The position numbers and the translations under genes were made by a program. The notes below the pieces were generated by a model. It saw only the letters and a program-made list of their open reading frames with translations. It did no database searches and was not told the DNA's origin. A stretch of DNA of 43,670 bases. It comes from a virus. The stretch covers positions 1 through 43,670 of IMG/VR virus record IMGVR_UViG_3300021061_000029, one strand, 5' to 3'. Shown piece after piece: positions 7,271 through 43,670 of this stretch (within the stretch, counting starts at the first letter, position 1; every line of letters starts with the position of its first letter).

Positions 7271-7525
7271 ATGCCGATAGAAGAGCAGAAGCAGATGGCT
7301 ATTATCCCGCTCCCTTGCCCTAGGTGCGGAAAGCCATTCCTATTCGACAGCGAGAAGTGGCCCCCTCAGCGCTATTGCTCCAGAGCTTGCTCCCAGTACG
7401 TGCGGACTAAGAAGTGGAGGGAGAAGAAGAAGCGTCAGGCCCCGCCGCAGGGTGGCTCTTCCGGTACTGGCTCCGCCGGCGCTCAAGGGCAACGTGAAGA
7501 TACTTCTGGGTCGTCGAAAGACTGA
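7271..7525 (+). CDS. Zinc-finger protein overlapping the integrase, 84 aa
   Basis: ATG 7271. After a short N-terminus, C-P-R-C-G-K-P-F is followed by Y-C-S-x2-C and a run of basic residues (K-K-W-R-E-K-K-K), the layout of a small FCS/MYM-like finger common in phages. The last 40 residues are low-complexity G/S/Q and lie over the 3' end of the convergent integrase gene (119-bp overlap). Confidence 0.6.
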   Translation: MPIEEQKQMAIIPLPCPRCGKPFLFDSEKWPPQRYCSRACSQYVRTKKWREKKKRQAPPQGGSSGTGSAGAQGQREDTSGSSKD

Positions 7526-11747: not shown

Positions 11748-12012
11748 GAGGCTGCGCGTCCCCTTCATCAACAACTGGCTTTCAAGGGCTCAGGAGAGCC
11801 AGCACCGAGCCAGCCAGCAGCAAGGGCTCAAGTACGTCAAACCCTACATCCCGCCCGAGGGAAGCGGTCGGAAGACGTTTAGCTGCGAGCGCTGCAAGGA
11901 CAAGGGAATTGTCCCGACAAAAACAGTCACTCGCTGGGGGGAGACGGTTGACGCCTACGCCCCATGCACTCCCTGCCAGGAAAAGCTCAAGCAAGCGAGG
12001 TACGGACGGTGA
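11569..12012 (+). CDS. Replication-protein-like C-terminal domain protein, 147 aa
   Basis: ATG 11569. Residues 25-80 carry the pattern Y-x-G-V-D-I-x2-E-I-x-K-A-x-T-W, N-P-x-K-R-K, R-V-P-F-I-N-N-W-L-S-R-A-Q. This pattern is seen at the C-termini of phage replication initiator and helicase-loader-like proteins. A C-x2-C and a C-x2-C pair follow. It probably recruits host replication; the N-terminal DNA-binding part typical of such proteins is missing or supplied by 11346. Its stop overlaps the first sugar gene (GTGA). Confidence 0.55.
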   Translation: MGHVVPAELQALSLYALDAKLCARWAEVYPLWQETYKGVDILGEIRKAHTWEVCNPDKRKRLRVPFINNWLSRAQESQHRASQQQGLKYVKPYIPPEGSGRKTFSCERCKDKGIVPTKTVTRWGETVDAYAPCTPCQEKLKQARYGR

Positions 12013-12953
12013 ACTATTGGATCAGCGGCGCTACGGGGTTCTTCGGGACGGCTCTCGCAAAGAAGCTGCTCTCCGAAGGCCATACGGTCACGGCATACGC
12101 GAGGAGCGAACACGGACATGAACGCCTGGAAAAGGCTTGCGCCGGCATCGGGGGCGCTCTGGTCTGCGCGATTGGTGACGTTAGAGATGCGGCGCAGGTG
12201 GCGCGTTCTATGCGGGGGGCTACTTACGTCGTCCACGCGGCGGCGCAAAAGATCGTCCCGTGGGCGGAACGCTGGCCGGAAGAAGCCGTAAAGACAAACG
12301 TCCTCGGCACGATCAACGTCTCGAAGGCGGCGGAGGAGCTTGGCGTAAAAGCCCTTCTCGTCTCGACTGACAAGGCGTGCCTTCCATCGAACACCTACGC
12401 CGCAAGCAAATACCTCGCGGAGCGCTCTTGGATCGGTCCCGCATGCAGATTCGGGAACCTCTGGGGCTCCACGGGAAGCGTGATCTACCACCTCCTAGCC
12501 CAGCGTGAAAGCGGCGTATTCAAGATTACGGACAAGCGCATGACGCGCTACAGCATGACGGCGGAGCAGGCCGCTGATTTCTGCCTCACCGCCCTTTACC
12601 GTGGGCAGCACGGGGAAACGTGGATCCCCAAGATGCCAAGCTACCGCTTGGTGGACCTCTGCTACGCTGTGAGAGACGACGCGAGGATCGTAGAGAGTGG
12701 CATACGGCCTGGCGAGAAGCTCGCGGAAGACCTGATCTCTACGCACGAGTGTTTCAGGGCTGAGGTCCACGACGACCGCTTCATCATTACTTCTAGGGTT
12801 GTCGACCACGAAGCTGTCTGGTCAGTCCGAAGCGACATCAATGAGGACTGGCTAACCGTGGTGGACCTGAGAGAGGGGATCAAATGGCTAACTACTTCCT
12901 GTACGGGGCGGGAGGCCACGGCAGGGTCGTCGCAAGCGTCTGCGAAGCCCTGA
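12009..12953 (+). CDS. UDP-GlcNAc 4,6-dehydratase-like SDR enzyme (PseB/LegB step), 314 aa
   Basis: GTG 12009 overlaps the replication gene. An extended SDR fold: G-A-T-G-F-F-G (7-13) binds NAD(P). The motif S-T-D-K-A-x2-P-x-N-x-Y-A-A-S-K carries D121, K122, Y130 and K134, matching the catalytic set of PseB-type dehydratases. K-T-N-V-L-G-T and I-T-D-K-R-M-T-R-Y are further family signatures. It should convert UDP-GlcNAc (or a GDP form) to the 4-keto-6-deoxy sugar, the first step to bacillosamine, legionaminic or pseudaminic acid. It is slightly short, and its 3' end overlaps the next gene by 70 bp. Confidence 0.88.
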   Translation: MNYWISGATGFFGTALAKKLLSEGHTVTAYARSEHGHERLEKACAGIGGALVCAIGDVRDAAQVARSMRGATYVVHAAAQKIVPWAERWPEEAVKTNVLGTINVSKAAEELGVKALLVSTDKACLPSNTYAASKYLAERSWIGPACRFGNLWGSTGSVIYHLLAQRESGVFKITDKRMTRYSMTAEQAADFCLTALYRGQHGETWIPKMPSYRLVDLCYAVRDDARIVESGIRPGEKLAEDLISTHECFRAEVHDDRFIITSRVVDHEAVWSVRSDINEDWLTVVDLREGIKWLTTSCTGREATAGSSQASAKP

Positions 12954-13429
12954 GCCATTCCTACGTGTTCGGGGACGACAAGGGCGATCCCCTACCAGCA
13001 CCACTAGCCGGATACGTCACCATCGGGAACAACCAAGCCCGCAGGGAGGTGGCGGAGAGGCTTGGAGCGACTGGGAAGCTGTTCGGCCCAGTCCTGGTCC
13101 ACCCCAAGGCCGTGGTATGCCTGTCGATCTTCGGCCACGGGACCGTCGTTATGGCGGGGGCCGTAGTCCAAGCCAACACCCGAGTCGGTAAGCACGCCAT
13201 CATCAACACAAACGCTTCGGTCGACCATGACTGCGAGATCGGGGACTACGCGCATATCGCCCCAGGCGCGGTGCTGTGCGGCGGGGTCAAGGTTGGAGAG
13301 GGTGCGCTGATTGGGGCGGGCGCTGTAATCGTCCCCGGAGTCAAGGTGGGTAAGTGGCGACTCGTCAAGGCCGGCACGGTCGTCAAGGAGGACGTTCCAG
13401 ATGCGGAAGTGGCCTCAGTTAACTCCTGA
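12884..13429 (+). CDS. PglD/NeuD-family sugar acyltransferase (LegH/PglD step), 181 aa
   Basis: ATG 12884. The N-terminus G-A-G-G-H-G-R-V-V is the Rossmann-like sugar-binding part. From about residue 70 on, hexapeptide repeats form a left-handed beta helix. H115 in S-V-D-H-D-C-E-I-G is the expected catalytic base, as in PglD. It should N-acetylate the 4-amino sugar made by the aminotransferase, using acetyl-CoA (another acyl donor is possible). Overlaps both flanking genes, so the five sugar genes are one coupled unit. Confidence 0.9.
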   Translation: MANYFLYGAGGHGRVVASVCEALSHSYVFGDDKGDPLPAPLAGYVTIGNNQARREVAERLGATGKLFGPVLVHPKAVVCLSIFGHGTVVMAGAVVQANTRVGKHAIINTNASVDHDCEIGDYAHIAPGAVLCGGVKVGEGALIGAGAVIVPGVKVGKWRLVKAGTVVKEDVPDAEVASVNS

Positions 13430-14480
13430 GCAGATTGCCGCCGCCAAGCGAGTCCTAGAAAGCGGGGTGCTGAATGGGCAACGCGGTCCAGAGACAGCGG
13501 CCTTCGAGAAGGAATTCGCGGATTGGAATGGGTCCAGACACGCAGTTGCCGTCTCAAACGGAACGGTTGCTCTCGAATGCGCTCTCGCAGCTCTACGGCT
13601 TAAACCGCCTTTTGACGTCGTTGTGCCAGCACGGACGTTTATCGCTACTGGATTGGCCGTCCTTAGAGCAGGCGGCAGACCTGTGTTCGCGGACGTGGAT
13701 GAATCTAGCGGATGCCTTACTGCAACATCAGTCCGGCGTGTACTCACCCGAAGAACTAAAGCTGTCATCGCCGTTCATCTCGGAGGATATCCGTGCGACG
13801 TTGGGGAAGTCTCACGCCTGGGTATCCCCGTCATCGAGGATTGCGCCCAAGCTCAAGGCGCTAGTCGTGCAGGGAAGAAAGTAGGGTCGCTAGGGCTGAT
13901 CGGCTGCTTCTCCTTCTGCAACGACAAGATCATGACCACGGGAGGCGAGGGCGGGATGGTGACGACGGACGACGCCAATCTCGCGGATCGCATCTGGTCA
14001 TGGAAGGAGCATGGTCGCAACAGGAAGCTCTTCGGTAAGCCCTCTGGCGGTCACTACGTCAAGTGCTTCGAGACCCTTGGAACCAACGCCAGGATGACCG
14101 AGATGCAGGCGGCGATTGGCCGAGAGGGGCTCAAGGTGGTGGGCAGGTGGGTTGAGCTTCGTCAGCTCCACTCCTCAATGCTGAATGGGGCGTTAACCTA
14201 CAACCACTCGTTTCTTTGGGGCCACGCCTACTACCGCTACTACTGGACAGCCAAGAGTAGGGCGCAGCGGGACATGATCCTCAAGTCTGGTCAGGTGGGC
14301 GTGGGGAGCTGCCCTGAGATCTACCTAGACAAGATCTTTGATGGCTACCGCCCCAAGAATCGCCTCCCCGTAGCCAAGATGCTCGGGGAGCGCTCTATCG
14401 CCTTCCTCGTAGATCCTGAGCAGACGCCTGCTTCGCTGGCGGCTCAGGCTAAGGCGGTGGGGGACGTGTGTTCTTCCTAG
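13401..14480 (+). CDS. DegT/DnrJ/EryC1 PLP aminotransferase (LegC/PseC step), 359 aa
   Basis: ATG 13401. Family marks: S-N-G-T (52-55) for cofactor phosphate, E-D-C-A-Q (146-150) with D147 contacting the pyridine, and S-F-C-N-D-K-x-M-T-T-G-G-E-G-G with K176 as the Schiff-base lysine. It transfers an amino group, usually from glutamate, to C4 of the keto sugar. The length is normal for the family. Confidence 0.9.
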   Translation: MRKWPQLTPEQIAAAKRVLESGVLNGQRGPETAAFEKEFADWNGSRHAVAVSNGTVALECALAALRLKPPFDVVVPARTFIATGLAVLRAGGRPVFADVDESSGCLTATSVRRVLTRRTKAVIAVHLGGYPCDVGEVSRLGIPVIEDCAQAQGASRAGKKVGSLGLIGCFSFCNDKIMTTGGEGGMVTTDDANLADRIWSWKEHGRNRKLFGKPSGGHYVKCFETLGTNARMTEMQAAIGREGLKVVGRWVELRQLHSSMLNGALTYNHSFLWGHAYYRYYWTAKSRAQRDMILKSGQVGVGSCPEIYLDKIFDGYRPKNRLPVAKMLGERSIAFLVDPEQTPASLAAQAKAVGDVCSS

Positions 14481-15055
14481 GGGTGATTCCAGCTAGGGGA
14501 GGCTCGAAGCGCCTGCCCGGTAAGAACCTGATGCCCCTTCTCGGGAAGCCGCTGATCGCCTGGACCATCGAGGCGGCGAAGAAGTCCAAGCTCGATAGCT
14601 TCATCGTCTCTACTGACAGCCGCGAGATCGCGGACGTAGCTCAGAGGTACGGCGCATGGGTCCCGTTTCTACGCCCCCCCGAGCTTGCTACCGACGGGGC
14701 GAGGACGGTCGACGTCCTCTGTCACGCCGTAAAACGGCTGCACGCGGACTTTAGCATCCTGCCCGACTACGTCGTGACACTTCAGCCGACGACGCCTACG
14801 AGGACCGAGCGGGACATCAACGTCGCCGTAGACTTCCTTGAAGAATGCTCCATGGACAGCTTCGTCACAACACTTGAAGACTTCTCGGCTCCCAACGGCA
14901 ACGTCTACACCACCTGCTACGACATGCTCATGAAGGATCGGCTCATCTGGACGACCTTCGGGGCCATGTGGCCGCAGATTGACTCTGAGTACCCGGATAT
15001 CGACACACTGGAAGACTTCAAGGAAGCGGAGCGCTTGCTATGCAGACGTTCGTGA
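14468..15055 (+). CDS. CMP-nonulosonate synthetase (NeuA/LegF/PseF type), 195 aa
   Basis: GTG 14468, 13-bp overlap with the aminotransferase. I-P-A-R-G-G-S-K-R-L-P-G-K-N (7-20) is the CTP-binding signature. S-T-D-S-x-E-I-A, L-Q-P-T-T-P-T-R and P-D-I-D-T-x-E-D-F follow in the usual order. It activates the nine-carbon sugar to its CMP form. It is about 25-35 residues shorter than typical members, mostly in the central dimerisation part, but all nucleotide-binding motifs are kept. Confidence 0.9.
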   Translation: MFFLGVIPARGGSKRLPGKNLMPLLGKPLIAWTIEAAKKSKLDSFIVSTDSREIADVAQRYGAWVPFLRPPELATDGARTVDVLCHAVKRLHADFSILPDYVVTLQPTTPTRTERDINVAVDFLEECSMDSFVTTLEDFSAPNGNVYTTCYDMLMKDRLIWTTFGAMWPQIDSEYPDIDTLEDFKEAERLLCRRS

Positions 15056-15777
15056 TCGCGGAGGCTGGAATCTCACACTGCGGAAAGCTGGAGAAGGCAT
15101 ACGAGGCTATCGAGGTCGCTGAAGCCGCCGGCGCGGACGCTTGTAAGTTCCAGTACTTTGACGCGAAGAAGCTGGCGGCGGCTAGGGGTAAGCCAGAGCT
15201 TGCCGACTTCCTGAAGCCATATGAACTGCCTCCTAACTGGCTACAGAAGCTCAAGGCTAAGTGCGACGAGGTCGGCGTCGAGTTCATGGCGACTACGTAT
15301 TACGCCGAGGCTATCGCGGACGTGGCTCCGCTGGTCAAGCGGTTCAAGATCGGGCACGCCGAGCGTGACAAGCGAGAGTTCGTCTCAACTCATTTCCCCT
15401 ATGGGAAGGAGATCGTCCTTAGTTCCCCTGGAACGGTTAGCGCGACATACTACAAGGAGTGGCTGGCTAACCCATGCACGGTCACATGGCTGTACGTTAC
15501 AGAAAAGTACCCTACCCCCATTGAAGATGTGGGCCTTGAGTACTTACACGCCTTCCAAGATCTTCCGGGACCTGACGGCTTCTCGGATCATACCCGCAAC
15601 GTACTGATGGGGGCTCTTGCGGTCGCCGCCGGCGCGAAGATCGTAGAGGTCCACTTCGAGCCCTGGAACGTCTCTCACCCGGATAGCTGCGTGTCGCTAT
15701 CCCCGTCGGAGCTGGCGCAGTACATCCAAAATATCAGGACGGCGGAGCTTGCCGTTTACGGAGCCAGTCGAGGATAA
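15040..15777 (+). CDS. N-acetylneuraminate/legionaminate synthase-like, SAF domain absent (NeuB/LegI), 245 aa
   Basis: ATG 15040. The TIM-barrel of NeuB is present: I-A-E-A-G-I-S-H-C-G (6-15), G-A-D-A-C-K-F-Q (31-38), F-S-D-H-T and A-A-G-A-K-I-V-E-V-H-F. It condenses a 6-carbon N-acylamino sugar with phosphoenolpyruvate to give a nonulosonic acid. Usual NeuB proteins have about 340-350 residues with a C-terminal antifreeze-like SAF domain that closes the partner's active site. Here the frame ends after the barrel, so the enzyme is compact or depends on another subunit. The 3' end overlaps the convergent epimerase by 44 bp. Confidence 0.88.
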   Translation: MQTFVIAEAGISHCGKLEKAYEAIEVAEAAGADACKFQYFDAKKLAAARGKPELADFLKPYELPPNWLQKLKAKCDEVGVEFMATTYYAEAIADVAPLVKRFKIGHAERDKREFVSTHFPYGKEIVLSSPGTVSATYYKEWLANPCTVTWLYVTEKYPTPIEDVGLEYLHAFQDLPGPDGFSDHTRNVLMGALAVAAGAKIVEVHFEPWNVSHPDSCVSLSPSELAQYIQNIRTAELAVYGASRG

Positions 15778-16654
15778 CCCCTGCCGCCCTCTCAGCAGCC
15801 CTCCCATCGGCGGGGTAGGGGGGCTTGCGCCCCTTCTGCCTTTTCCCTATAATGACTGATTTCAATCCAATAGTCGGGGCCTCCAGAACAGCGCTTGAGC
15901 TGTTCCCGACAAAGCGCTTCGCCAGCTTCATGAGACCCCAGTAATACTGTGGCTCAAGATGTGACACTAGGTAGTCACCCTTCCTGGGAGCTTTTCCAAT
16001 GGCCTCTTTTACTGCCTCATGGCCTGGGTCTAGATTGGGGAGGAAGTAGACTGTAGATCCTAGGTTCTCCTGGCCTAGGCGAATGGCCTCTCGCTCAACG
16101 CCAACGTCGCCCGCCGTCTCCGGGTGGACGGATACGATCATGACTGGGCTTGAGAGCTTGCCGCCCAACCGCTCCTCCAGTGCCGCTTTTGTGGCGAGAT
16201 CCGGCCTAAATGCCCAGTCGGTACCTATGGCCCCGATTAGATGCGTAGGATTGGCTCCTAGCGCGTCTAGGCGTGCTTTAGCGTCCTCGCTGGACGCCAA
16301 ATGAAGGCTAGAGAGCATGGTGATGGCGTTTCGGATTTGGTCGTCAAAGGCCCCTAACGTTACCTCTCCGCCGTGTAGGTGAACGATAGGCGTCCCTGTC
16401 ACCGTCGCCGCCTGCGCCGCCATCAGGGTCTCATAGCGGTCGCCAAGAAGGACCAGCGCGTCTAGGGGGTAGGTTTCTAGGGTCGCCCGGATGTGGTCGT
16501 AGACGACGGAAGCGGTCTTCGTGGTGTGCCCGGACTCATCAAAGACCGTGACGGCTGCCCCAGAGGTCTTCAGCGCCTCAGCTAGAAGCTGAAGGATCCC
16601 CCAGTCATGCCTCCCAGTCTTCAGTATCCCAAGTCTCTTTTGAGATTCCGCCAT
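15734..16654 (-). CDS. Hydrolysing UDP-sugar 2-epimerase-like (NeuC/LegG), 306 aa
   Basis: ATG 16654. It shows G-D-R-Y-E (71-75), H-L-H-G-G-E-V-T-L-G-A-F-D (92-104), V-S-V-H-P-E-T, L-P-N-L-D-P-G-H and G-N-S-S-S-A-V-L-E-A, the string of motifs of NeuC/WecB-family epimerases. It would release the manno-configured sugar for NeuB. Its presence, instead of a PseG-type hydrolase, favours a legionaminic over a pseudaminic product. The usual R-H-x3-K of the family reads R-N-A-I-T-M (108-113), and the protein is about 60 residues short. It ends the leftward late transcript, separate from the other five enzymes. Confidence 0.87.
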   Translation of the reverse strand: MAESQKRLGILKTGRHDWGILQLLAEALKTSGAAVTVFDESGHTTKTASVVYDHIRATLETYPLDALVLLGDRYETLMAAQAATVTGTPIVHLHGGEVTLGAFDDQIRNAITMLSSLHLASSEDAKARLDALGANPTHLIGAIGTDWAFRPDLATKAALEERLGGKLSSPVMIVSVHPETAGDVGVEREAIRLGQENLGSTVYFLPNLDPGHEAVKEAIGKAPRKGDYLVSHLEPQYYWGLMKLAKRFVGNSSSAVLEAPTIGLKSVIIGKRQKGRKPPYPADGRAAERAAGVILDWLRKRQAPPS

Positions 16655-17177
16655 GAAGGATAACGGGCCTCCCGTCAGCGTGGATTGGTCGCATCCAAGG
16701 CTCGCACCATACGTAGCTCTCGCTGAGGGGCACGATGGTCGGCTTGACGTCCTGTATCGAGGCTAGAAGGGCCTCCTCGTCAAGGGGCCAGTCCCTATCA
16801 GCGAGCAGTTCCTGCCAGCGCTCAAGGGTCTCTACGCTCTTCTTAGAGCTTGAGAAGCTGATGCAGTTTGACCACCAGCGATAGGAGCCTTCCGGCTTAC
16901 AGGCGCGGATATCTCCGCCGGCCCAGCCATCAAGCTCCGCTGGATACTCCAGGACTTCAGAGTCCACGTCGACCCATGATACGGGAGAGCCGACCTTTTC
17001 CATCCAATCTAGGATGATCGTCGGCTTGAAGCGTCTCGCCTCCATGACGTGCCTAGGCTCCCCGCCAATCTCTACGATCCTATGGGGGATGCCGTACCTC
17101 TCAAGCGAGCGCTTAAAGCGTGGGATACAGCGGTGGTACTTCTCCCCCCACGCCATTGAGACGGCAAAGACGGACAC
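16605..17177 (-). CDS. Putative GT-A-type glycosyltransferase, 190 aa
   Basis: ATG 17177. After an N-terminal strand comes S-W-V-D-V-D-S-E-V (67-75), a D-x-D-like metal/nucleotide-sugar site. W-W-S-N-C-I-S-F, D-E-E-A-L-L and I-L-H-G-G follow, in the order seen in small GT-A transferases of the nucleotide-diphospho-sugar fold. It overlaps the epimerase gene by 50 bp, so both are coupled. It might use or prepare the acceptor for the sugar made by the cluster; the donor cannot be told. Confidence 0.6.
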   Translation of the reverse strand: MSVFAVSMAWGEKYHRCIPRFKRSLERYGIPHRIVEIGGEPRHVMEARRFKPTIILDWMEKVGSPVSWVDVDSEVLEYPAELDGWAGGDIRACKPEGSYRWWSNCISFSSSKKSVETLERWQELLADRDWPLDEEALLASIQDVKPTIVPLSESYVWCEPWMRPIHADGRPVILHGGISKETWDTEDWEA

Positions 17178-18383: not shown

Positions 18384-18749
18384 CTATTGCATCACCGTCC
18401 CATAGGTGGTCACTTCCCAGGTGATGTTGGCCGCTATTCCGGTCAGTCTTGGGACGATAGTCCCGCCGCTGGCTACAAGGGTTGCGGTCGCGGAAGAGAG
18501 CGCGGTGTCCCCTTGGGCGGCCATGAGGTTCTGAACGGTCCCGATGAGAGCGGCGCTCCCGCCAACCGCTCTCTTAAAGGCGCAGCCCAACCTCCACACC
18601 TTTCCGCTCGTCCCGCTCTTGGCGACGATGACGCACTCCACGCTGCCTACTTTGTCCTCGGCGATAGAGATGGCGGCGGAGGTAGCGTCTACCGGAGTAG
18701 CGTTGGCTGTAGCCACTACCGCTGCCTTCTGGTCAAAGATCAGGCTCAC
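18384..18749 (-). CDS. Small tail-associated protein, 121 aa
   Basis: ATG 18749 overlaps the tail-fibre stop (ATGA). Rich in A, T, V and S with beta-strand alternation, without signal or cysteine pairs. It is likely a virion-surface or fibre-associated protein by position and composition. Not recognised. Confidence 0.55.
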   Translation of the reverse strand: MSLIFDQKAAVVATANATPVDATSAAISIAEDKVGSVECVIVAKSGTSGKVWRLGCAFKRAVGGSAALIGTVQNLMAAQGDTALSSATATLVASGGTIVPRLTGIAANITWEVTTYGTVMQ

Positions 18750-21700
18750 GCTACCCCCAGGAGAACGGCCACGGCGCTAAAGTCCATGTCGCGTCTCAGG
18801 TATTCTTTCCGCTGATCGTCCGAGAGGAGGGCGTGGACGTCCTGCGGCCCCTTAGAGTATGTAGCCCCACAGTGGCCGCAGACAAAGCGATAGCTCTGCC
18901 AGGTGGTGTTGAGCGTGGCGACGGTCCACTCGTCGTAGCCGCAATCGCCACAGTGGGGACCGGCTGGGCCAAAGGCTGTCACCGTGCCGCCACTACCTCT
19001 CCAAGTGCCCGCCCCAGCGTTTGAGTAGAGGATGCCGCCGCCCGTGGGGTTGGTGGATGGATTGGTGCCAGCGTTGGCGATACCGATAACGCCAATGCCT
19101 CCGCCCATGCTTGGGGTAGCGCCGAAGTAGGTGTTAAAAGACCCCTGCCCGCCAGCGGCCACCCAGAAGGCCAGGGAGGTCGTGTAAGTCGCGTTCGTGC
19201 CCTGGACTGGGGAGCCCACAATGGCAAGCGTCGTTGCTCTCGTCACCGTGCTTGCGCCAGCGAAGGCGTGAGTGCGGTTGCGGATGAGGACGCTGCGCTG
19301 ATCTGTGATCGCCCCCGTCGCGTGGGTCATGATCGCGTCAAGATCGAAGTCAACGTCCAACACTTCCGTGCTGGCCGTCTGTCCAGTATGCGCCGCTCCG
19401 ACAAGAAGCCAGCCAGTGTCAGCGCCGCTCGTGTTGGTCGCCTGCGGGAAATAGTAGTTCGCGTCGCCAGCCGTGGAGGCAGGGTTGACCCCGTTAACGG
19501 CAAACCTGAGCGCGCCGCCACAGCTAATACCGATGGAGTCTTCGGCAACGCTGTAAATCCCTGAATTGGTATCCGTGCCGCTTGGGCAGAGCGCCGGGCT
19601 GCTGACGTTACCGCCAGAAACGCGGATAACCCCTTGGCACGTCGTTGTCGGGACAAGCGTAATCCCTGACGAGGAGATAGAGACCCGGTTGCCGCCACCA
19701 GTGGTGATGTCGAGGACGTTTGACCCGGTCGAGTAGATACCAGTATCGAGGTCCGCTTCGTTCGGGCATAGGCTGGGGCTGGCGGCAGACGTGCTACCGC
19801 TACCCCCGAGTTGCCCGTCGAAGCGCGAGACGCCAGAATCCACCCATAGGGCGTAAGTGTCCGTCAGAGTGACGCCGCTTCCCGTCGGAGCCCCTCCGAT
19901 GTAGAGCGTCGAGGACAGGGAGATGCTCGTCACCGTCCCGGCGTCCGTAATGGTCGGCGCGTTAAGGGCGACCATGTTGAAGCCGGTAGCCGTGGTGATA
20001 TTGGTGGAGCCAGAGATGGACACGTCTGCGTCGATGAGGACTTCGTTCCAGGTGGCTCCAGCCGCGCTTGCGATGGTGCGGGAGCCGTCTACGAGAAAAC
20101 CTCCAGCCGTGGTGCCGCTACCCGTGAGGCGCACGGCTCCAGAGTCAACGGTGATGGTCCTTCCAGCCCCAGCTCCGCCACTGTCGTAGGCTTGGTCGAG
20201 CGTGCCCCCAGACCCGGAAGTGCTGACCCACCCGCCGTCATAGGCGTAGAGGATGTTGTTGGTGGAGTCCCAGACAAGCGGGATCTGCCCCGTGGGGATT
20301 GAGGCTGGAGTTCCTGAAGGGGTCCCAGCGCAGCTCTGGAGATGGAAGAAGCCTTCCGTGGCGTTGGTGGCTAGGGCGGACGTGCCGTGGGCGAAGCGGT
20401 AGTTTCCGCCCGTCGTCAGCCCACCTGTGGCCGCGATTTTCCAGTGAGCATTGGAGTTATCGGCGCTAAAGATGATCCCCGCAGGCGCGTTGGTCCCGAC
20501 GTACATGCAGCCGCTTGAGTCGAAGAAGCGGTCCACTCCGTACTGGGCCAAGTACTCAACCCCGCTTACGGAGCCTAGAGTCTGGTTGTAGACCCCTGAG
20601 AGGTTCCCGATGTTCGCCGCGCTGTAGCGGAAGCGGAAGAGATAGTTCCCCGCGCTAGATGGAACGCCTACCGTCGTAAACCCAGTCGTCGTGGACTGTA
20701 GCTCCGCGTATACCGTCCCATCCGTGTGCGTAAGCCTGACCTGTGGGTTGGAAGCGTCGAGAACGTCCAGACGCCTATCGGGGCCAGTCGTGTTGACGCC
20801 GAGATTTGTGCCATCCCACGTCGGTCCTGTCGTAAGCACGCTTGACGAGTCGGTGACGACCACCCTAGACGCGGTAAGAGCCGTAGTCACGCTGCCGGCG
20901 AAGGTCACGTTCCCGGAGGTGTCGATGACGAAGTAGTCGTTCGTCCCAAGGGCCGTGCTTTTGCTGATCTTGAATTTGTCCGAGTCCGAGTTGTCCACTC
21001 CGATAGCCCAGGAGGTACCCGCCGTCATGATGGCGTAGGCGTCCCCAGAGCCCGCCGTGGAAAGCCCGAGGAAGGAACTTGCGCTTGCGCCGGAGGATGT
21101 ATTCGTCCAGATGATGCCTTTGGAGCCATCAATGCTGGTTAGGCTCTGCATCGTCTGCGATGCGTTCGTGGATGCCGGGTTCAGGTTGAGGATGCCGGAG
21201 GAACTTACGAGAACATCCCAGTAGTTGTTCGCGTCGTAAGAGAGGCGGAGTTGCTTGCCTGCCGTGCTAGTGAGGCGCAGGAAGTTATCCGTGTCATCCC
21301 AGAAGAGGTTCGTATTGTCCTGGCTGACCAAGCCGCTAGCACCGACGAAGAGAACGGATCCCTGCGTTAGCTGTGGGAGGTAGAATCCACTATCCGTCAC
21401 TCGCCAGATTTGGGTTCCGGACTGATACCAGCCGTAGTCGCTTGCGGCGTTCCTGACGAGGCCGTTGTCGCCCTCTCCACTGATGGCCCATCCAAGCGCA
21501 ACCGTCGTAGTGTCGCCCGATGGAAGTTGGATTCTTTTCCCAGAGATAGGGTCTGGCAGTTGGGCCAGCGTGAGGGTAACGCCCCCGGTGGCCGGGTCCG
21601 TGTCCTCCAGAGGCTTAACTAGCTCGTTGTAATCGCACTTTGTATACAGGCTGTCCCTGACACCGTAGTACTTCTCGGGATCTGGACGCCAATAGGAGGC

Positions 21701-21778
21701 AACCAGAGTCTTAGGGGTATCCCCGTCTGGCGCGACCTCCGAGTATTTGCCCTTCTCCTCTTCCGCCATTACTCCCAC
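18746..21778 (-). CDS. Tail fibre/tailspike-like protein, 1010 aa
   Basis: ATG 21778, 10-bp overlap with the upstream gene. It is long, S/T/G-rich and beta-repetitive. At least two repeats of the form S-P-x-L-C-P-x4-D-x3-G-I-Y-S followed by G-G-x2-R (about residues 680-770) are typical of phage tail fibres built as trimers. It should bind the host surface. Oddly, the last 80 residues contain C-G-D-C-G-Y and C-G-H-C-G-A, a C4 zinc ribbon, in place of a recognisable intramolecular chaperone. Confidence 0.8.
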   Translation of the reverse strand: MGVMAEEEKGKYSEVAPDGDTPKTLVASYWRPDPEKYYGVRDSLYTKCDYNELVKPLEDTDPATGGVTLTLAQLPDPISGKRIQLPSGDTTTVALGWAISGEGDNGLVRNAASDYGWYQSGTQIWRVTDSGFYLPQLTQGSVLFVGASGLVSQDNTNLFWDDTDNFLRLTSTAGKQLRLSYDANNYWDVLVSSSGILNLNPASTNASQTMQSLTSIDGSKGIIWTNTSSGASASSFLGLSTAGSGDAYAIMTAGTSWAIGVDNSDSDKFKISKSTALGTNDYFVIDTSGNVTFAGSVTTALTASRVVVTDSSSVLTTGPTWDGTNLGVNTTGPDRRLDVLDASNPQVRLTHTDGTVYAELQSTTTGFTTVGVPSSAGNYLFRFRYSAANIGNLSGVYNQTLGSVSGVEYLAQYGVDRFFDSSGCMYVGTNAPAGIIFSADNSNAHWKIAATGGLTTGGNYRFAHGTSALATNATEGFFHLQSCAGTPSGTPASIPTGQIPLVWDSTNNILYAYDGGWVSTSGSGGTLDQAYDSGGAGAGRTITVDSGAVRLTGSGTTAGGFLVDGSRTIASAAGATWNEVLIDADVSISGSTNITTATGFNMVALNAPTITDAGTVTSISLSSTLYIGGAPTGSGVTLTDTYALWVDSGVSRFDGQLGGSGSTSAASPSLCPNEADLDTGIYSTGSNVLDITTGGGNRVSISSSGITLVPTTTCQGVIRVSGGNVSSPALCPSGTDTNSGIYSVAEDSIGISCGGALRFAVNGVNPASTAGDANYYFPQATNTSGADTGWLLVGAAHTGQTASTEVLDVDFDLDAIMTHATGAITDQRSVLIRNRTHAFAGASTVTRATTLAIVGSPVQGTNATYTTSLAFWVAAGGQGSFNTYFGATPSMGGGIGVIGIANAGTNPSTNPTGGGILYSNAGAGTWRGSGGTVTAFGPAGPHCGDCGYDEWTVATLNTTWQSYRFVCGHCGATYSKGPQDVHALLSDDQRKEYLRRDMDFSAVAVLLGVA

Positions 21779-27047: not shown

Positions 27048-28514
27048 CTACTGACTGCTCTGCGTCTGAAGAGGCTCCGCGTAAGCCTCGATCCTATAGA
27101 GCGTCACGTCCTGCCCAGAGGCGTTGTTCGTCGCCCTTATTCTATGATAATTCGCGGGAGTCGAGTCGGCCTCGAAGCGTTTTACTGGCCCCTCAGTAGA
27201 GACGTTCATGGTCCCGCCTAGAGAGCGGGCCGTCCCGTCCCCATACTGCTCAAGAGACAGTGAGAGAGAGCCTGTATTCTTCGCGTGGACGAAGATAGAG
27301 TGCATCCGCTTCTGGGCGTTCCCGTCCGCGAAGTCGATGTCGGGAGTCTCCCAGTAAAAGTCGATGGCAGAGCCGTCGTCATTCGTTCCGTTCTCGTCCT
27401 CCCAGACCAGGACGCTAGATCCAGCTTTCCCTAGGAGGAGTCTCCCGTCCGGGTGGTTGGCGTAGACCCTGACGGCCTTCCCTGTATTAAGCCCCCAGAC
27501 GCCCCGCTCAACGTCCAAGATCAACTCGCGGTTATTCGTCGTCCCAGACGCGGGGTAGGCGATCCGAATCGTCTTCTTGTAGCGGCCAAGCGCGATAGTC
27601 CCCTTGTTCGGGATGGCGTCGTAGGTAGGCCATACCGGGTCGTCCATGCGGACGGGGTTACGACCATTGATGCCGAAGATCCCCTTCGGGGTTGCCACCA
27701 CCACGAAGTTGTCGTAGGCGAGCATCGCGGTATTGGAGAGCGCGGGGTACGAGAGGATCTTCTTCGTGACGAAGTCAAACGGAGAAGATCCAAAGATGCT
27801 GTAAATCGCCCCTTCCAGGCTGCCCGCGACGTTGCTGATCTTGCTGACCAGCATGAAGTCGCCGGCCGAGCAGATGCCGTTCACCACGTAGCCATCGCCC
27901 TTGTTGAAGCCGATAGACACGCAGTTGTCCGGGTTCGTGGTCGTGTCCCACAGCTCCGGGTTGTTGAGGCCGCTGCCGTTTACGCGGCTGGCGTCCGATG
28001 CCGCCCCTGAGTAGTCATAGCCTGGTCCAGCGATCCAGAGCCGACCCTTGTGGACAGCCGTGTACTTGCCGTTTGGAGGAGGGCTCCCACCCAAGCTCGC
28101 CGTAGCCCCAGAGCCTGTCCACTTGTAGGGACCTCCGCCAGTATTGCAGATGATGAAGAGGTCGTTAAACATGGTCATGCTGACCATGGTGTCGGAGGTA
28201 ATCGTTGGCCCGCTGATCGCGGACCATGTCCCAGAGGTGATGTCGTAGAGAGCCGTTCCGACGCTCGCTAGAATCTTGGTCGTCCCAGCCGAGGTCGTCG
28301 CCCCAAAGAGCCCAGAGCAGAAGTTTCCACTCTGGGTAGAGCCCGTGAACTTGATGTACCCCTTGCGCTTCTTGACGCAGCCGACTTCCGTGGGATCAAA
28401 GTTCTGGGCGTCAGGGGACTGGTTGGCCCCTAGCCGATGAGCCGGGAAGCGCGTCACCAGGCCCCCGTCGAAGCCTTGCGCTGTAAACTGGGCAAATCCT
28501 TCGTCGATAGGCAT
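27048..28514 (-). CDS. Tail hub / head-closure protein, beta-propeller-like, 488 aa
   Basis: ATG 28514. The N-terminus S-P-D-A-Q-N-F-D-P-T-E-V-G-C-V-K-K-R-K-G is a signature of the podovirus tail/stopper proteins that follow the adaptor. The rest is rich in W, G, D and T strands like a propeller. It probably closes the portal-adaptor complex or forms the tail tube. Start and stop overlap its neighbours or nearly so. Confidence 0.65.
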   Translation of the reverse strand: MPIDEGFAQFTAQGFDGGLVTRFPAHRLGANQSPDAQNFDPTEVGCVKKRKGYIKFTGSTQSGNFCSGLFGATTSAGTTKILASVGTALYDITSGTWSAISGPTITSDTMVSMTMFNDLFIICNTGGGPYKWTGSGATASLGGSPPPNGKYTAVHKGRLWIAGPGYDYSGAASDASRVNGSGLNNPELWDTTTNPDNCVSIGFNKGDGYVVNGICSAGDFMLVSKISNVAGSLEGAIYSIFGSSPFDFVTKKILSYPALSNTAMLAYDNFVVVATPKGIFGINGRNPVRMDDPVWPTYDAIPNKGTIALGRYKKTIRIAYPASGTTNNRELILDVERGVWGLNTGKAVRVYANHPDGRLLLGKAGSSVLVWEDENGTNDDGSAIDFYWETPDIDFADGNAQKRMHSIFVHAKNTGSLSLSLEQYGDGTARSLGGTMNVSTEGPVKRFEADSTPANYHRIRATNNASGQDVTLYRIEAYAEPLQTQSSQ

Positions 28515-29371
28515 TAGATGTAGGGGGTGTAGATCGAGAAGTACTCGTCCCGCTGAATACGCCTCATCTCCCTCTTAGCTTCGAGCTTCTTCCCCTCGTA
28601 GAGCCCAAGCTGGATCTGCGCTTCATCCTCACGGCCAAGCTGGAAGAGCGCCTGGGCTATGGCATGGTGCAGAAGCGTCTTGTGCCAGCGCTGGGGGATA
28701 GCGGGCTCCGCCGTATCCGACGAGAGCTGCGGCGGGACGTAGAAGTAGTTCATGATGAGGTCTAGGCGGTATACGGGGAGGGTGGCAGTTCCTGGGTTGT
28801 GGGCCGCAGCCGTCGTTCCGCCCTGACCGCGCACGCAGAGCGTGAGATCGTTGTTGGACGTGTCTTGGCCTTGGTGAAGGATCTGCTCGCTGTCGATCAG
28901 AATCATCCCGCCGTTCGAGTGGAACTTCGTTACGTCTCCAACCTGGATCGTGGTGGCGGAGCTTGATACCGTATTACTGATCGTGGACGTGTTCGACGAA
29001 GTCCCGGGAGGTGGGCCAAGCCAGAGGCAGTTGTCGACGATGGTGTAGGCGACCGGGCGCGTCGAGGTAGCATCCCAGTCGAAGTACCCAGCCCTCTGAA
29101 AATCCTTCGGACTCATGTAGGTCAGAGGATACTCGCCGTTCTGGTACCAGTGGACCGTCTTTGGCTTGATGAAGTCGGACGGGAGGGCGTAGCGGAACTG
29201 CTTGGCCGTGACGTAGTAGCCGTATGGCCTCCAGAGCGGCTCAACCGTCGTGGTCCAGTCCTCTAGCGCGTTGTTGATGTACGTGCCCGCGACTGCGGAG
29301 GTAATCTGCTTCCCGTTGGGGGCGTTCACCCTCCGAAGCAGCTCCGTGCGGAGAGCGGAAAAGGCCGTCAT
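28514..29371 (-). CDS. Head-to-tail adaptor-like protein, 285 aa
   Basis: ATG 29371 (ATGA overlap). The N-terminal helix L-R-T-E-L-L-R-R-V-N-A, then Y-I-N-N-A-L-E-D-W, and the strand-rich Y-A-L-P-S-D-F-I-K-P-K-T match the general plan of P22 gp4/T7 gp11-like adaptors. It joins portal and tail. Assigned from layout and position, not a database match. Confidence 0.6.
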   Translation of the reverse strand: MTAFSALRTELLRRVNAPNGKQITSAVAGTYINNALEDWTTTVEPLWRPYGYYVTAKQFRYALPSDFIKPKTVHWYQNGEYPLTYMSPKDFQRAGYFDWDATSTRPVAYTIVDNCLWLGPPPGTSSNTSTISNTVSSSATTIQVGDVTKFHSNGGMILIDSEQILHQGQDTSNNDLTLCVRGQGGTTAAAHNPGTATLPVYRLDLIMNYFYVPPQLSSDTAEPAIPQRWHKTLLHHAIAQALFQLGREDEAQIQLGLYEGKKLEAKREMRRIQRDEYFSIYTPYI

Positions 29372-30063
29372 GCAACCTCACCCTGCTTGGCGTAAAAACG
29401 GTCAAGCATCTCGAATTCCTTGTGGATGGACGTGGCTTTGAGCGGGAGTTCGCTTTCGATGCCAGAGGCGTCCCGAAGCGTCACCCAGTCAGGACACCAA
29501 AAGGGAAGCTCGTTGAGCGCCCGGTTTACGCGGACCTTGAGGCAGGTGTAGTAGTCCTTCACCTTCTCATAGGTCTCATCTTCGCGCCCTTCTTCCTTCC
29601 TGACCTCTTCGAGCTTCGAGCGCATGTACTCTTCGGAGAAACTGTTATCGCTCCCGACAGTGACGATGCGAGGAGATCCCATAAGCATCGCCATGCCCAT
29701 CGCCCCGATGAGCGAACAGCCACGATGCAGGATCTTGAGGTTCTGGACGTCTTCAGGCAGCTTCTTGGCCGGCTCCCACAGATAGACGTCTGGCTCGTAA
29801 TGCTCCGCCCAGTTCTCGACGCCAATCTTGATGGCGGCTTTGGCATTCGGATGGTCCTTGTAGAGGCGATAGGCGAGGGCGTCGATGAAGAACCAGTACT
29901 CCGCTTTGACCTTCGTGATGGCGGAGTTGATGGCGATACGGAAGCTGTGCGGGTGCGGCTCCGCCAAGTACTTCTCCGCCTTCTTGACCGACGGCCCAGG
30001 GCAGATAATGAAGCAAAGCTCCCTGACGTGCTTGCCGTAGAGCTGGCGGGCGAGGGGATTCAA
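29368..30063 (-). CDS. DUF115/Maf-like putative sugar transferase B, 231 aa
   Basis: ATG 30063. Near residue 20, F-I-I-C-P-G-P-S-V is followed by I-A-I-N-S-A-I, then A-E-Y-W-F-F-I-D, and later M-G-S-P-R-I-V-T-V-G-S-D-N-S-F. This is the G-P-S ... N ... D ... G-x-D order of DUF115/Maf proteins and of GT42-type sialyltransferases, which use CMP-activated nonulosonic acids. It is homologous-looking to its upstream neighbour (30060-30869), so a duplication is likely. Embedded in the head genes with 4-bp overlaps on both sides. Transfer of the phage-made sugar to virion protein is an inference. Confidence 0.6.
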   Translation of the reverse strand: MNPLARQLYGKHVRELCFIICPGPSVKKAEKYLAEPHPHSFRIAINSAITKVKAEYWFFIDALAYRLYKDHPNAKAAIKIGVENWAEHYEPDVYLWEPAKKLPEDVQNLKILHRGCSLIGAMGMAMLMGSPRIVTVGSDNSFSEEYMRSKLEEVRKEEGREDETYEKVKDYYTCLKVRVNRALNELPFWCPDWVTLRDASGIESELPLKATSIHKEFEMLDRFYAKQGEVA

Positions 30064-30869
30064 AGGACGTCCTCCAGCTTCACTTTCGGGACAGGCAAAG
30101 CGCCGTCCGAGGCGTCGAGGATCTCAACTTCACGCTCATACCACTGGGGCTTGTCGGGGCCAAACATGTCCCTCATTCTGGCTCGGGAAACGTATAGAAC
30201 GGCATTCGTCTTCAGCCCCTCAAAGCCCTTGGGCTCGTAGCCGTCGAAGTAGCGGTCAATCGAGAAGTCGCAGCCAACGCAGACGATCCGCTTCGCGCCC
30301 ATGCGGACGAGGAGGTGAAGGGCGGTAGAGAACGTGGATTCATTCCAGTAAATCGGACGGTCTTCCTTGACCTTCCAGCGAAGAGGTTCGCCGGCCGTCT
30401 CAAGGAGATAGGCTGGCTCGTTCTCAAGAGCCTTTGTCACGTTAAGGCCAGCGTTGATGAGCTTCTTCGCGGCGATGGCGTTGGGATGCTGAGAGCAGAG
30501 ATTCCAAGCTACCGCGTCGATAAACGCCCAGTAGTCTGCTTTAACCCGCTCAATAGCCCTGTTGATAGCGATGGTCACTCCAGGCAGCTTTTCGGGGCAG
30601 GAGTTGAGACTAGGGCCGCTGCCCACCAGGAAGGCCGTCTTACCCTCCAGGGTCCCGTAGAGAGAGCGCATGTCGAGGAATGGAGCGTCGGGTCGACGGC
30701 GCTTGACCGCCTTCCACGTCGCTGGATACATCTTGTTGGACCAGACGGTGATCCCCTGGGCTTCCAGATCCTTCATCTGGGCCTTGCTCATCACCCCATC
30801 AGCGATGAGGGCCGTCCCGACGTCCTTCGGTAGGCGCATAAAGGGATGGGCTGAGTTCCCCCAGCCCAC
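30060..30869 (-). CDS. DUF115/Maf-like putative sugar transferase A, 269 aa
   Basis: ATG 30869. After about 70 residues comes F-L-V-G-S-G-P-S-L-N-S, then I-A-I-N-R-A-I, A-D-Y-W-A-F-I-D and, after a variable part, S-T-A-L-H-L-L-V-R-M-G-A-K-R-I-V-C-V-G-C-D-F-S. This matches the DUF115 (MptE-like/Maf) pattern and the G-N-G-P-S-L and G-x-D-F landmarks of GT42 sialyltransferases. Flagellin-modifying Maf proteins transfer pseudaminic or legionaminic acid to Ser/Thr. It lies directly downstream of the coat and surface-protein genes, so their products are natural candidate acceptors. Such proteins also occur in phages without known sugar pathways. Confidence 0.65.
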   Translation of the reverse strand: MGWGNSAHPFMRLPKDVGTALIADGVMSKAQMKDLEAQGITVWSNKMYPATWKAVKRRRPDAPFLDMRSLYGTLEGKTAFLVGSGPSLNSCPEKLPGVTIAINRAIERVKADYWAFIDAVAWNLCSQHPNAIAAKKLINAGLNVTKALENEPAYLLETAGEPLRWKVKEDRPIYWNESTFSTALHLLVRMGAKRIVCVGCDFSIDRYFDGYEPKGFEGLKTNAVLYVSRARMRDMFGPDKPQWYEREVEILDASDGALPVPKVKLEDVL

Positions 30870-30881
30870 CCGGATTCGCGC

Positions 30882-31448
30882 CTACTCGAACTGGATGTAC
30901 GCCTTGCCGCTCGTCGCGGTAGACGTAGCAACCGTCGCGGCCCAGCCGACCTGACGCTCCAAGAAGCGCTCCAGGGCCGTCTGAGTGACCTGAGTGTTCG
31001 CGGCTCCCAGGTCGATGTTGATGGACATGCCGTCCTGCGAAGCGTTGCCGGCGGCGTAGAGGTACTCACCCTTACGCCAATTGAGGCGCGTCCCGTTCGC
31101 CTTCTTCAGGGTCGCCTCGTAGCCAAGCACCTTCACCCAGCCGTACTTCGTGTCACCGAGTACGGACTGGTAGACGCCGCACGCGAACGCCGAGTCCACG
31201 TCGGACACGTCCATGCCGACTTCCCAGATGTTGCCAAGGGTCTGACCGCGATAGGCGATGCCGCCCGCCGCCGCCGTGACCGTCGACTCGTTCTGGTAGA
31301 CGTAGCGGTACTTCTCGCACCCGCGCCCGGACGTGGAGGACTCTTCCTCGCGCACCGTCCCAAGTGCGTAGCGCTGAATGCTGTCTCCGGTCGTGGTGAC
31401 GTCCTCACCAAACGACTGGACAGCGTGACCCATTCTGCCGATAGCCAT
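30882..31448 (-). CDS. Minor head / decoration-type protein, 188 aa
   Basis: ATG 31448. Rich in G, A, T and S with aromatic strand residues, three cysteines, no signal. It follows the coat gene by 28 bp, a common place for decoration or head-fibre proteins. It could be the acceptor for glycosylation by the next two genes. Inferred. Confidence 0.5.
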   Translation of the reverse strand: MAIGRMGHAVQSFGEDVTTTGDSIQRYALGTVREEESSTSGRGCEKYRYVYQNESTVTAAAGGIAYRGQTLGNIWEVGMDVSDVDSAFACGVYQSVLGDTKYGWVKVLGYEATLKKANGTRLNWRKGEYLYAAGNASQDGMSINIDLGAANTQVTQTALERFLERQVGWAATVATSTATSGKAYIQFE

Positions 31449-31476: not shown

Positions 31477-32427
31477 TTAGGAGGGCTTGATCTTCGACAG
31501 CACCGACATCATCCGGCGGTTCGTGCAGAGCAAGTTGCCCGTGAACGTGAGCCGCTGGACATGGATGTCCTGGTTGATCGGCGTCGGCAGCTTCGTCACC
31601 GTCATGTTGTCGTCCTCGTGGACGTACAGGAACAGGTGCTTGCTGTTGAGCAGGAACATCCAGTTATCGTTCGCGCTCGACCCGGTCCCGGGAGAGTGCG
31701 AGTCGAAGAAGATCGGCACGCCGTTGAAGAGCAGGTACTTGAAGCCACCGGAGCCCGTCGCCCCCTCGCCGTAGCGCTGGTTCGAGGTGAGGAGCGCCCA
31801 GTACTTCTTGTACATGGCCTTGTTCGTCACCAGGATGTCAGGCATATCCGAGCCAATCGTGGCGTCGAGGTAAGCCTGCTCCAGGCGCGAAAGCGACAGG
31901 TTGGTCGACGTCGCGTCCACGTCCGCCGCCCAGTTCGAGAAGTCCGTCGGGCTGATGTTGTGGTGCGTGGTGGACGTCGAGCCAAGGTTCCGGAGACCCG
32001 TGAGACCCGTCGCGCTGTCGCCGTTCGTCGAGAAGAGATCGGTCGACAGCATGTCGGCCATCTTGAGGTGCGCGTTCCGGGTCTTCGACTCGATCAGGGA
32101 CACCTTGGCCGAATCGCCGCTGTTGAGCAGCATTTCGTGCCGGCTCAGGATGACGTGGACGTAGTACAGCTTCCACGCCGCCTTGAGAGCCGTGTCCGTG
32201 TCGGTCGGGTTGACGTTCAGGTTGTCATAGCGGGTGTACGAGCCACCCGCGCTGATCTTCTGATACATCAAGTCGACCTGGATGTCAGCGCCACCCCGAC
32301 GCATGACCTGATCCGTCTCCTTGAGGTGGTAGAACAGAGGAGCATCCCCGTAGATGTTGTCCTCCGCGAACTCCTCAAGCAGATTGGTCGTCGTGGAGAC
32401 GACCTGATCGCTAAAAGGGAGAGCCAT
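31477..32427 (-). CDS. Major capsid protein, 316 aa
   Basis: ATG 32427 with AGGAAAGG upstream. The gene sits directly after the scaffold, and the product has the size and composition of an HK97-fold coat: a long helix region (L-E-E-F-A-E-D-N-I-Y-G, L-S-R-H-E-M-L-L-N), a D-L-F-S-T-N-G-D segment and a C-terminal R-L-T-F-T-G-N-L strand. Its T/S-rich surface loops could be glycosylated. Confidence 0.75.
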   Translation of the reverse strand: MALPFSDQVVSTTTNLLEEFAEDNIYGDAPLFYHLKETDQVMRRGGADIQVDLMYQKISAGGSYTRYDNLNVNPTDTDTALKAAWKLYYVHVILSRHEMLLNSGDSAKVSLIESKTRNAHLKMADMLSTDLFSTNGDSATGLTGLRNLGSTSTTHHNISPTDFSNWAADVDATSTNLSLSRLEQAYLDATIGSDMPDILVTNKAMYKKYWALLTSNQRYGEGATGSGGFKYLLFNGVPIFFDSHSPGTGSSANDNWMFLLNSKHLFLYVHEDDNMTVTKLPTPINQDIHVQRLTFTGNLLCTNRRMMSVLSKIKPS

Positions 32428-42846: not shown

Positions 42847-43077
42847 ATGAGCCACAAGACGAGACCCGCGTACCTGAAGGCTGTCGCCCGCGAAACCAAG
42901 TCGCCCGCCTTCTCTCATGAAGAGTGGGCTGAGATCTACTACGCCGTGGCCCGGAAGGCCAGCGACCTAGAGAACGGCTACTACGGCTCCTCCGACAGCG
43001 AAACCAACGTCGAAGAGTGGGCCGCGCAACTCCGCTCGATCATGGCGCGGATCGAGGCCGCTGGCATCAACGTCTAG
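42847..43077 (+). CDS. First gene of the early operon, 76 aa
   Basis: ATG 42847 with GGAGGA at 42835-42840; a TTG-started longer frame overlaps the promoter and is rejected. A soluble, charged helical protein (E-E-W-A-E-I-Y-Y-A-V-A-R-K-A) with no cysteines. Its C-terminal 14 codons are repeated at 1-45. Function unknown. Confidence 0.65.
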   Translation: MSHKTRPAYLKAVARETKSPAFSHEEWAEIYYAVARKASDLENGYYGSSDSETNVEEWAAQLRSIMARIEAAGINV

Positions 43078-43159
43078 TCCATCCTCCTCTGTAACCGGCT
43101 CTCTCACTCCTGGGGGAGCCGGCTCAGAGTGGGATGGATGAGTGGATGGAATGGAGGAA
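43033..43159. repeat. 127-bp direct repeat, copy 2
   Basis: Identical to 1-127. Downstream, this copy leads to CTATGAAAAAGG and a different gene set than copy 1. Confidence 0.97.
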
Positions 43160-43161
43160 CT

Positions 43162-43365
43162 ATGAAAAAGGTGCTGAGCTTCCCCGCGATTGCCTTCGAG
43201 ATCATGCCCAAGGCCACGGATCTATGCATCATGCGGACGCACGTCCTGATGGGCGGAGAGTCGTACCGCATGACCCGCAAGGACGCTGCCGCCTACATCA
43301 AGGCGCTTCGGTCGAACCTGAAGAAGCTCCACGCGGAGCGCGAAGCCGCCGTCTTCGGCGGGTAG
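43162..43365 (+). CDS. Hypothetical protein on the alternative branch, 67 aa
   Basis: ATG 43162 uses the ribosome-binding site in the 127-bp repeat. An alpha/beta-looking sequence with a basic helical end (A-L-R-S-N-L-K-K-L-H-A-E-R). No relation to the 135-308 product that follows copy 1. Not recognised. Confidence 0.6.
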   Translation: MKKVLSFPAIAFEIMPKATDLCIMRTHVLMGGESYRMTRKDAAAYIKALRSNLKKLHAEREAAVFGG

Positions 43366-43374
43366 GGGGAGGCC

Positions 43375-43569
43375 ATGAACGACGCTGAATTGATCGCGGC
43401 TGCCGCCATCGTCAATGCTTGGACGGTGGAAGTCACGGAAGCGAACCGCCAGCGCGAACGCCAGGGGAACGCGCTGGCCTACGACGGGCTCCCGCCCGAG
43501 GCGTGGAAGTACATCGAAGCACTGAAGGCCGGGCTGTCCCTGCGCGGAACGGTTCCGACGAGCGCATAA
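43375..43569 (+). CDS. Hypothetical helical protein, 64 aa
   Basis: ATG 43375 with GGGGAGG upstream. Alanine-rich helices, soluble. Same operon style. Not recognised. Confidence 0.58.
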   Translation: MNDAELIAAAAIVNAWTVEVTEANRQRERQGNALAYDGLPPEAWKYIEALKAGLSLRGTVPTSA

Positions 43570-43579
43570 GGAGGATTCT

Positions 43580-43670
43580 ATGGCTATGAAGATCCCGCCC
43601 CCTCCGCCGAAGCGGAAGGACATGGAGACCCTGGTTAAGGTCTGGGAAAAGGTCCCGGTCGGAACCCGCG
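43580..43670 (+). CDS. Partial gene at the window end
   Basis: ATG 43580 follows AAGGAGGATTCT, the same ribosome-binding sequence as before the gene at 321. It begins with a run of prolines and lysines (P-P-P-P-P-K-R-K) and is cut by the end of the window after 30 codons. Confidence 0.45.
   Translation, partial: MAMKIPPPPPKRKDMETLVKVWEKVPVGTR

Follow-up and report, generated by a model that had tools for sequence, protein, structure and literature searches.

The stretch of viral DNA analysed here (the window; 43,670 nt, 43.7 kb, IMG/VR virus record IMGVR_UViG_3300021061_000029) contains two adjacent minus-strand genes, P1 and P2, embedded in the head operon. P1 (30060-30869) encodes 269 aa from a GTG codon, with an ATG at 30839 as the alternative and, by homology, more likely start; its product is a one-domain PF01973-type protein with a Maf/GT42-like fold. 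P2 (29368-30063) starts with TTG and encodes 231 aa. An earlier note on this DNA had described two adjacent proteins encoded within 29368-30869 as paralogue-like; both reading frames are present, and they are true paralogues, sharing 31% identity over 217 aa in BLASTP (E=6e-17). The motifs to which it had drawn attention are present as well, namely G-S-G-P-S-L and A-D-Y-W-A-F-I-D in P1, C-P-G-P-S-V and A-E-Y-W-F-F-I-D in P2, and a late G-x-D segment in the pair (V-G-C-D/V-G-S-D).

The head operon is arranged in the order terminase, portal, scaffold-like gene, major head protein, 188-aa gene, P1, P2 and SU10 adaptor, where the first three names derive from gene order and reading of the ORFs. 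The major head (capsid) protein (31477-32427, minus) matches PHROG 9953 (E=3.8e-47) and has Mx8/Mx9-type relatives. Next to it lies the gene for a conserved small head protein of 188 aa (30882-31448, minus), homologues of which stand right 3' of the capsid gene in the relatives G2-G6 described below, and the pair is bounded downstream by the SU10-type adaptor gene (28514-29371, minus; PF24175, 6.8e-18). The placement of P1 and P2 directly 3' of the capsid and 188-aa genes agrees with the earlier note, while the decoration-like label that it gave to the latter is positional only. The P1 stop and P2 start codons overlap by 4 nt (TTGA), as do the P2 stop and adaptor start codons (ATGA); therefore, P1 and P2 are translationally coupled and are translated as members of the head operon. 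These overlaps and the operon position indicate that the two genes, for whose products we infer transferase activity, are expressed with the structural genes.

P1 matches PF01973 with E=1e-6 (29.1 bits) and P2 with E=0.18 (12 bits), in both cases under the curated cut-off of 34.6, and all 11 proteins of the aligned set match this family at E<=1. PHROG 4603, named alpha-2,3-sialyltransferase, is weakly matched by P1 (5.6e-5) and P2 (0.0097), and Pfam scans of the two proteins gave no GT42 match. Sequence searches of the PDB with P1, P2 or a P1/P2 profile alone returned essentially noise; with the homologue of the far relative G6 added, the profile reached MptE at 3.6e-5, and the G6 protein itself matched Maf 5mu5 best (2.5e-4), followed by MptE (5e-3). 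A scan of bacterial genomes with P2 patterns found no relative, and a genome search with PF06002 gave no match anywhere, its positive controls being equally silent.

AlphaFold models were good for P2 (pLDDT 92, pTM 0.89) and fair for P1 (pLDDT 73, pTM 0.77). The P1 model matched Maf 5mu5 at 2.8e-5, the MptE HPPK 8sd5 at 3.4e-5, CstII at about 5e-3 (with a probability of 0.95-0.99 for the best chains) and ST8SiaIII at 0.012. The P2 model matched MptE at 5e-4, Maf at 4e-3 (best TMq 0.56) and ST8SiaIII at 0.03. Maf 5mu5 and MptE 8sd5 are thus the best fold matches of both models, placing P1 and P2 in the PF01973 superfamily fold. Maf and CstII were matched besides MptE, and the outcome that the earlier note had named as contrary to its reading, a match to MptE only, did not occur. 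As judged from these models, the fold alone does not separate a transferase from a pyrophosphokinase.

The catalytic residues of MptE lie in its DLDGD and HAHGD stretches, and those of the Methanocaldococcus jannaschii enzyme are absent at the aligned positions of P1 and P2. The active-site residues of CstII are Arg129, Ser132 and His188. Arg114 and Ser117 of P2 align with Arg129 and Ser132 at identical spacing; the P2 proteins of the window, G2 and G4 have this Arg/Ser pair, and those of G3 and G5 have Asn/Ser. At the same positions P1 proteins have Asn or Ala with Thr (Asn/Thr in the window). The MAFFT-level alignment of P1 with CstII was judged reliable only in the GxGPS and late-strand regions, and no counterpart of His188 was placed. 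The lack of the two MptE stretches, the CstII-like spacing of Arg and Ser in P2 and the genomic context together favour a transferase over an MptE-type enzyme. The architecture of a Maf flagellin glycosyltransferase, which requires three domains, was considered and rejected for these one-domain proteins. In Maf, PF01973 is the central, CstII-like domain, flanked by N- and C-terminal domains (PMC11339370). The Maf/GT42 assignment made earlier therefore stands at the level of fold, while the family names were too strong for single-domain proteins whose likeness to GT42 sequences is at motif level.

Viral scans returned a contig of the same species (G1) and four other phages (G2-G5), each containing both genes; a far relative (G6) was compared as well. 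Homologues of both P1 and P2, with 37-48% identity, occupy the same place in all four of the related phages, and the pair between the capsid/188-aa genes and the adaptor gene is therefore kept in five phages. In G6, the capsid protein of which is 31% identical, a single PF01973 gene (109.6 bits) lies right 3' of the capsid gene and the 188-aa homologue. In the phylogenetic tree the five P1 proteins form one clade (95/93) and the five P2 proteins another (100/99), and thus the duplication is older than these phages. Chance is excluded as the origin of the arrangement, since both genes are kept in place in four other phages and fall into two well-supported orthologue clades. Among the ten proteins there is little or no variation at the GxGxS, Asn and Asp positions of the motifs.

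A complete gene set leading from UDP-GlcNAc to a CMP-nonulosonate (Leg/Pse/Neu), with six enzyme types, is encoded at 11964-16654, 14 kb away from P1 and P2. It comprises a PseB/LegB/FnlA-like UDP-sugar 4,6-dehydratase (11964-12953, plus; TIGR03589 PseB 196 bits, cut-off 408; PF02719 1.3e-55), a NeuD/PglD-type sugar acetyltransferase (12884-13429, plus; TIGR03570 161.0 bits, cut-off 160.8), a PseC/LegC-like aminotransferase (13401-14480, plus; TIGR03588 181 bits and TIGR04181 144 bits, both under cut-off), a NeuA/PseF-like CMP-nonulosonate synthetase (14468-15055, plus; PF02348 2e-26; TIGR03584 133 bits), a NeuB-type nonulosonate synthase (15040-15777, plus; PF03102 5.1e-35; TIGR03569 4.3e-41) and a NeuC-like hydrolysing UDP-sugar 2-epimerase (15734-16654, minus; TIGR03568 198 bits, cut-off 236). 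The full pathway announced in the earlier note is thus present as enzyme types, but all of its genes except NeuD score below the NCBIfam equivalog cut-offs, and for this reason the exact nonulosonate is not fixed. A legionaminic-type product, as opposed to a pseudaminic-type one, is suggested by the NeuC- and NeuD-type genes and by a NeuB that resembles NnaB more than PseI; as a counter-signal, Pse models give the best scores for the dehydratase, the aminotransferase and the cytidylyltransferase. Of the six genes, only the NeuC-like one is on the minus strand; it overlaps NeuB by 44 bp, 3' end to 3' end. The window NeuB is short (245 aa). In it, as in the NeuB proteins of G4 and G5, the NeuB domain alone was matched, with no antifreeze-like C-terminal domain among the Pfam matches.

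A possible GT-A-type glycosyltransferase with a DxD-like VDVDSE motif is encoded at 16605-17177 (minus), overlapping the NeuC gene. It is 29% identical (E=7e-26) to the product of a DxD-bearing gene of G2 (L004:10774-11328), which lies between P1 and P2 there, and has no Pfam, PHROG or NCBIfam family match, its enzyme class being assigned by motif only.

The contigs of three relatives (G3, G4 and G5) extend far enough to show NeuB, and each of them contains the gene 5' of the terminase genes, accompanied by a methyltransferase and, in G4 and G5, by a CMP-sugar synthetase. These NeuB proteins share 51-59% identity among themselves and just 25-27% with that of the window, which is encoded at another genome site inside the six-gene pathway. 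Two unrelated sugar modules are thus combined with one conserved transferase pair. In G4 and G5 the methyltransferase gene stands between NeuA and NeuB, which hints at methylated nonulosonic acids. The 33 kb contig of G6 contains no NeuB or CMP-synthetase gene beside its head-cluster PF01973 gene. Ten named phages with a homologous capsid protein contained no PF01973, NeuB or CMP-synthetase gene (0/10), and of 50,697 phage records searched by tblastn, no more than 3 contained NeuB.

Beyond this phage group, the linkage recurs. A scan of viral contigs for NeuB found 58, and PF01973 genes were present in 19 of the 50 NeuB-bearing contigs outside the group, usually within 4 kb of NeuB; five short fragments were left out of the count. 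Co-occurrence in other phages, which the earlier note had proposed as a check, was thus observed. Among 13 groups, set by eye from coordinates and identities, PF01973 lies within 4 kb of NeuB in 10 (combined p=0.0018, given presence on the contig). A CMP-synthetase is encoded in 16 of the 20 PF01973-bearing virus records tested, and the PF01973 frame overlaps NeuA or NeuB in G15, G23, G30, G38 and G51. G15 carries a tandem PF01973 pair, the second gene of which overlaps NeuA by 4 nt; its correspondence with P1/P2 in the tree has weak support and long branches. In G28 and its near twin G27, which have a different, SU10-type capsid, the gene order is capsid, PF01973/methyltransferase fusion, small ORF, NeuB and SU10 adaptor. 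The fusion (L153 1839-3305 in G28) is another hint at methylated nonulosonic acids. The physical linkage of PF01973-type genes to NeuB/NeuA in other phages and the fold matches to Maf and CstII support the transferase half of the initial proposal. The uncultured viral contigs L154 (G24), L148 (G23), L149 (G30), L150 (G34) and L151 (G38) contain large glycan-biosynthesis clusters, in which one or two NeuB genes accompany NeuA, PF01973 and further glycosyltransferases.

As MptE-like proteins are no rarity among uncultured phages, the linkage is read from the short distances, the overlaps of reading frames and the examples of G15 and G28 rather than from a background rate of co-occurrence. A fold search of viral proteins gave 23 matches at E<=0.001, several of them named MptE-like and one a methyltransferase-domain protein in UniProt. 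Since such proteins occur in uncultured Caudovirales, the result of tblastn searches with P1, P2 and the G6, G15, G28 and G30 homologues, which had no match in the 50,697 phage records, was not used as a background rate.

Taken together, P1 and P2 are probably single-domain Maf/GT42-like transferases that modify virion proteins with a CMP-activated nonulosonic acid. As donor class, CMP-nonulosonate is well supported by the genomic context. Points that weigh against this reading are the Pfam scores of P1 and P2 below the cut-off, a fold match to MptE as good as that to Maf, the G6 contig lacking NeuB and CMP-synthetase, the PF01973 genes that belong to glycan instead of head clusters, and the 14 kb between the sugar genes and P1/P2. 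Judged solely from the position of the genes, the most plausible acceptor is the virion rather than the host surface, and this is strengthened by the independent phage G28, in which PF01973 and NeuB lie between the capsid and adaptor genes. Phages related and unrelated to this one pair such genes with genes for sialic-acid-like sugars, so their virions are probably self-decorated with sugars of this kind. In the proposed mechanism, the pathway at 11964-16654 would supply the CMP-nonulosonic acid, and P1 and P2 would act in the cytoplasm on newly made head proteins, before or during assembly, by analogy with Maf1 and with the CstII-like PF01973 domain of Maf. Maf1 glycosylates flagellin in the cytoplasm, before its export (PMC4065374). 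Attachment would probably be O-linked to Ser/Thr of the major capsid protein and/or the 188-aa protein encoded just upstream, yielding a glycosylated virion, and the two copies could each have an acceptor of their own or attach two sugars in succession. The paralogy, the fold, the position kept among relatives, the coupling to head genes and the tie of the family to NeuB/NeuA are observed, whereas catalytic activity, the use of CMP-nonulosonate as donor, the virion as acceptor, O-linkage and this division of labour are all points that we infer. Near the C-terminus of the 188-aa protein is a Ser/Thr cluster that the five close phages have in common, and together with the capsid protein it is a candidate acceptor. 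A large tail-fibre-like protein (18746-21778, minus), which is Ser/Thr-rich (23%) and ends in a CxxC-CxxC zinc-ribbon-like motif, is another possible one.

The main rival explanation is that, while infecting the cell, the phage uses P1 and P2 to transfer the nonulosonate to a glycan of the host surface (LPS, capsule, S-layer or flagellin) and so changes the receptor, blocking superinfection or aiding release. Lipooligosaccharide is the substrate of GT42 enzymes such as CstII, PHROG 4603 is named for a sialyltransferase, and in many NeuB contigs the PF01973 gene belongs to a glycan cluster with other glycosyltransferases, outside head clusters. Coupling to late head genes, directly 3' of the capsid genes in three phage groups, speaks against such a role, which appears unlikely, although it is more credible than the other alternatives. 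The same coupling would also suit a non-enzymatic function, in which proteins of transferase fold were recruited as minor head or assembly factors; the sequences are divergent, and the equivalent of CstII Arg129 is lost in P1 and kept in only some P2 proteins. However, the near invariance of the GxGxS, Asn and Asp positions and the linkage to sugar genes in unrelated phages make this improbable.

An MptE/TPK-like pyrophosphokinase acting on a pterin or other small molecule is more improbable still. MptE is the top or second fold match, as good as Maf, the profile including G6 reaches it, and phage homologues bear its name in UniProt; but the catalytic stretches are missing, and an enzyme of this type has no reason to track NeuB/NeuA or to adjoin head genes. 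Glycosylation of phage DNA rather than protein, for which precedents among phage glycosyltransferases are cited in PMC12619734, can be given the least credence, as P1 and P2 lie in the head operon and not with DNA metabolism, an unsystematic look noticed no base-modifying gene, and the fold belongs to transferases whose acceptors are glycans or proteins.

As virion-modifying transferases, P1 and P2 would combine features of several known systems. They share with Maf the fold of the central domain, the tie of the gene to a CMP-nonulosonate pathway and, on the model of Maf1 (PMC4065374), an expected transfer in the cytoplasm to a structural protein, but Maf proteins have 632-666 aa and three domains, compared with 231-269 aa and one domain here, and P1 and P2 form a tandem pair in a phage head operon without flagellin. 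With the GT42 enzymes CstI and CstII they share the fold and the GxGPS and Asn motifs, the Arg/Ser pair of the window P2 being aligned with that of CstII; they differ in the Asn/Thr of P1 and, as far as the Pfam scans show, in the lack of a family match at sequence level, and CstII uses an oligosaccharide. The likeness to MptE, a 6-hydroxymethylpterin diphosphokinase, lies in the fold and the GxGPS strand, whereas the DLDGD and HAHGD stretches are lacking and the context is one of sugar and head genes, not folate-like pathways. Uncultured Caudovirales proteins listed as MptE-like or uncharacterized share the fold, but no function is assigned to them.

A few mycobacteriophages are known to have glycosylated virions. 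In Che8, Corndog and Myrna, the capsid and tail proteins are modified by glycosyltransferases that the phages encode (PMC12363180; Freeman 2023, cited in PMC12619734); the accessible portions of these sources describe no nonulosonate pathway or Maf-type enzyme there, whereas the phage studied here brings its own sugar pathway. The searchable literature, which includes few subscription journals and preprints, contained no report of nonulosonates or of Maf-type or GT42-like transferases on phage virions. The evidence is evenly balanced on the wider proposal of a recurrent module in uncultured phages, in which one-domain Maf/GT42-like transferases of the head cluster, as the conserved core, are combined with exchangeable CMP-nonulosonate pathways to give particles with sialic-acid-like sugars. 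In some cases these sugars are perhaps methylated, the methyltransferase being fused or adjacent. If the proposal is true, phages coat themselves with a class of sugar displayed by bacteria and animal cells, and a single phage supplies all the enzymes needed to make an activated nine-carbon acidic sugar and, in its head operon, those that place it. This would bear on phage adsorption, particle stability and recognition, and would assign a function to a class of phage proteins that currently go by the names MptE-like or uncharacterized.

The ends of the window share a 127-bp repeat (1-127 is identical to 43033-43159), and the 18 kb contig G1 connects window positions 749 and 43670 through about 139 bases of other sequence. 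The window ends (1-748 and 43033-43670) therefore look like an edge left by the assembly of a genome that is circular or permuted. By reading of its sequence, the protein encoded at 7407-8432 (minus) is tyrosine-recombinase-like, with a 74% identical homologue in G5, and the phage may be temperate or use an Xer-like enzyme.
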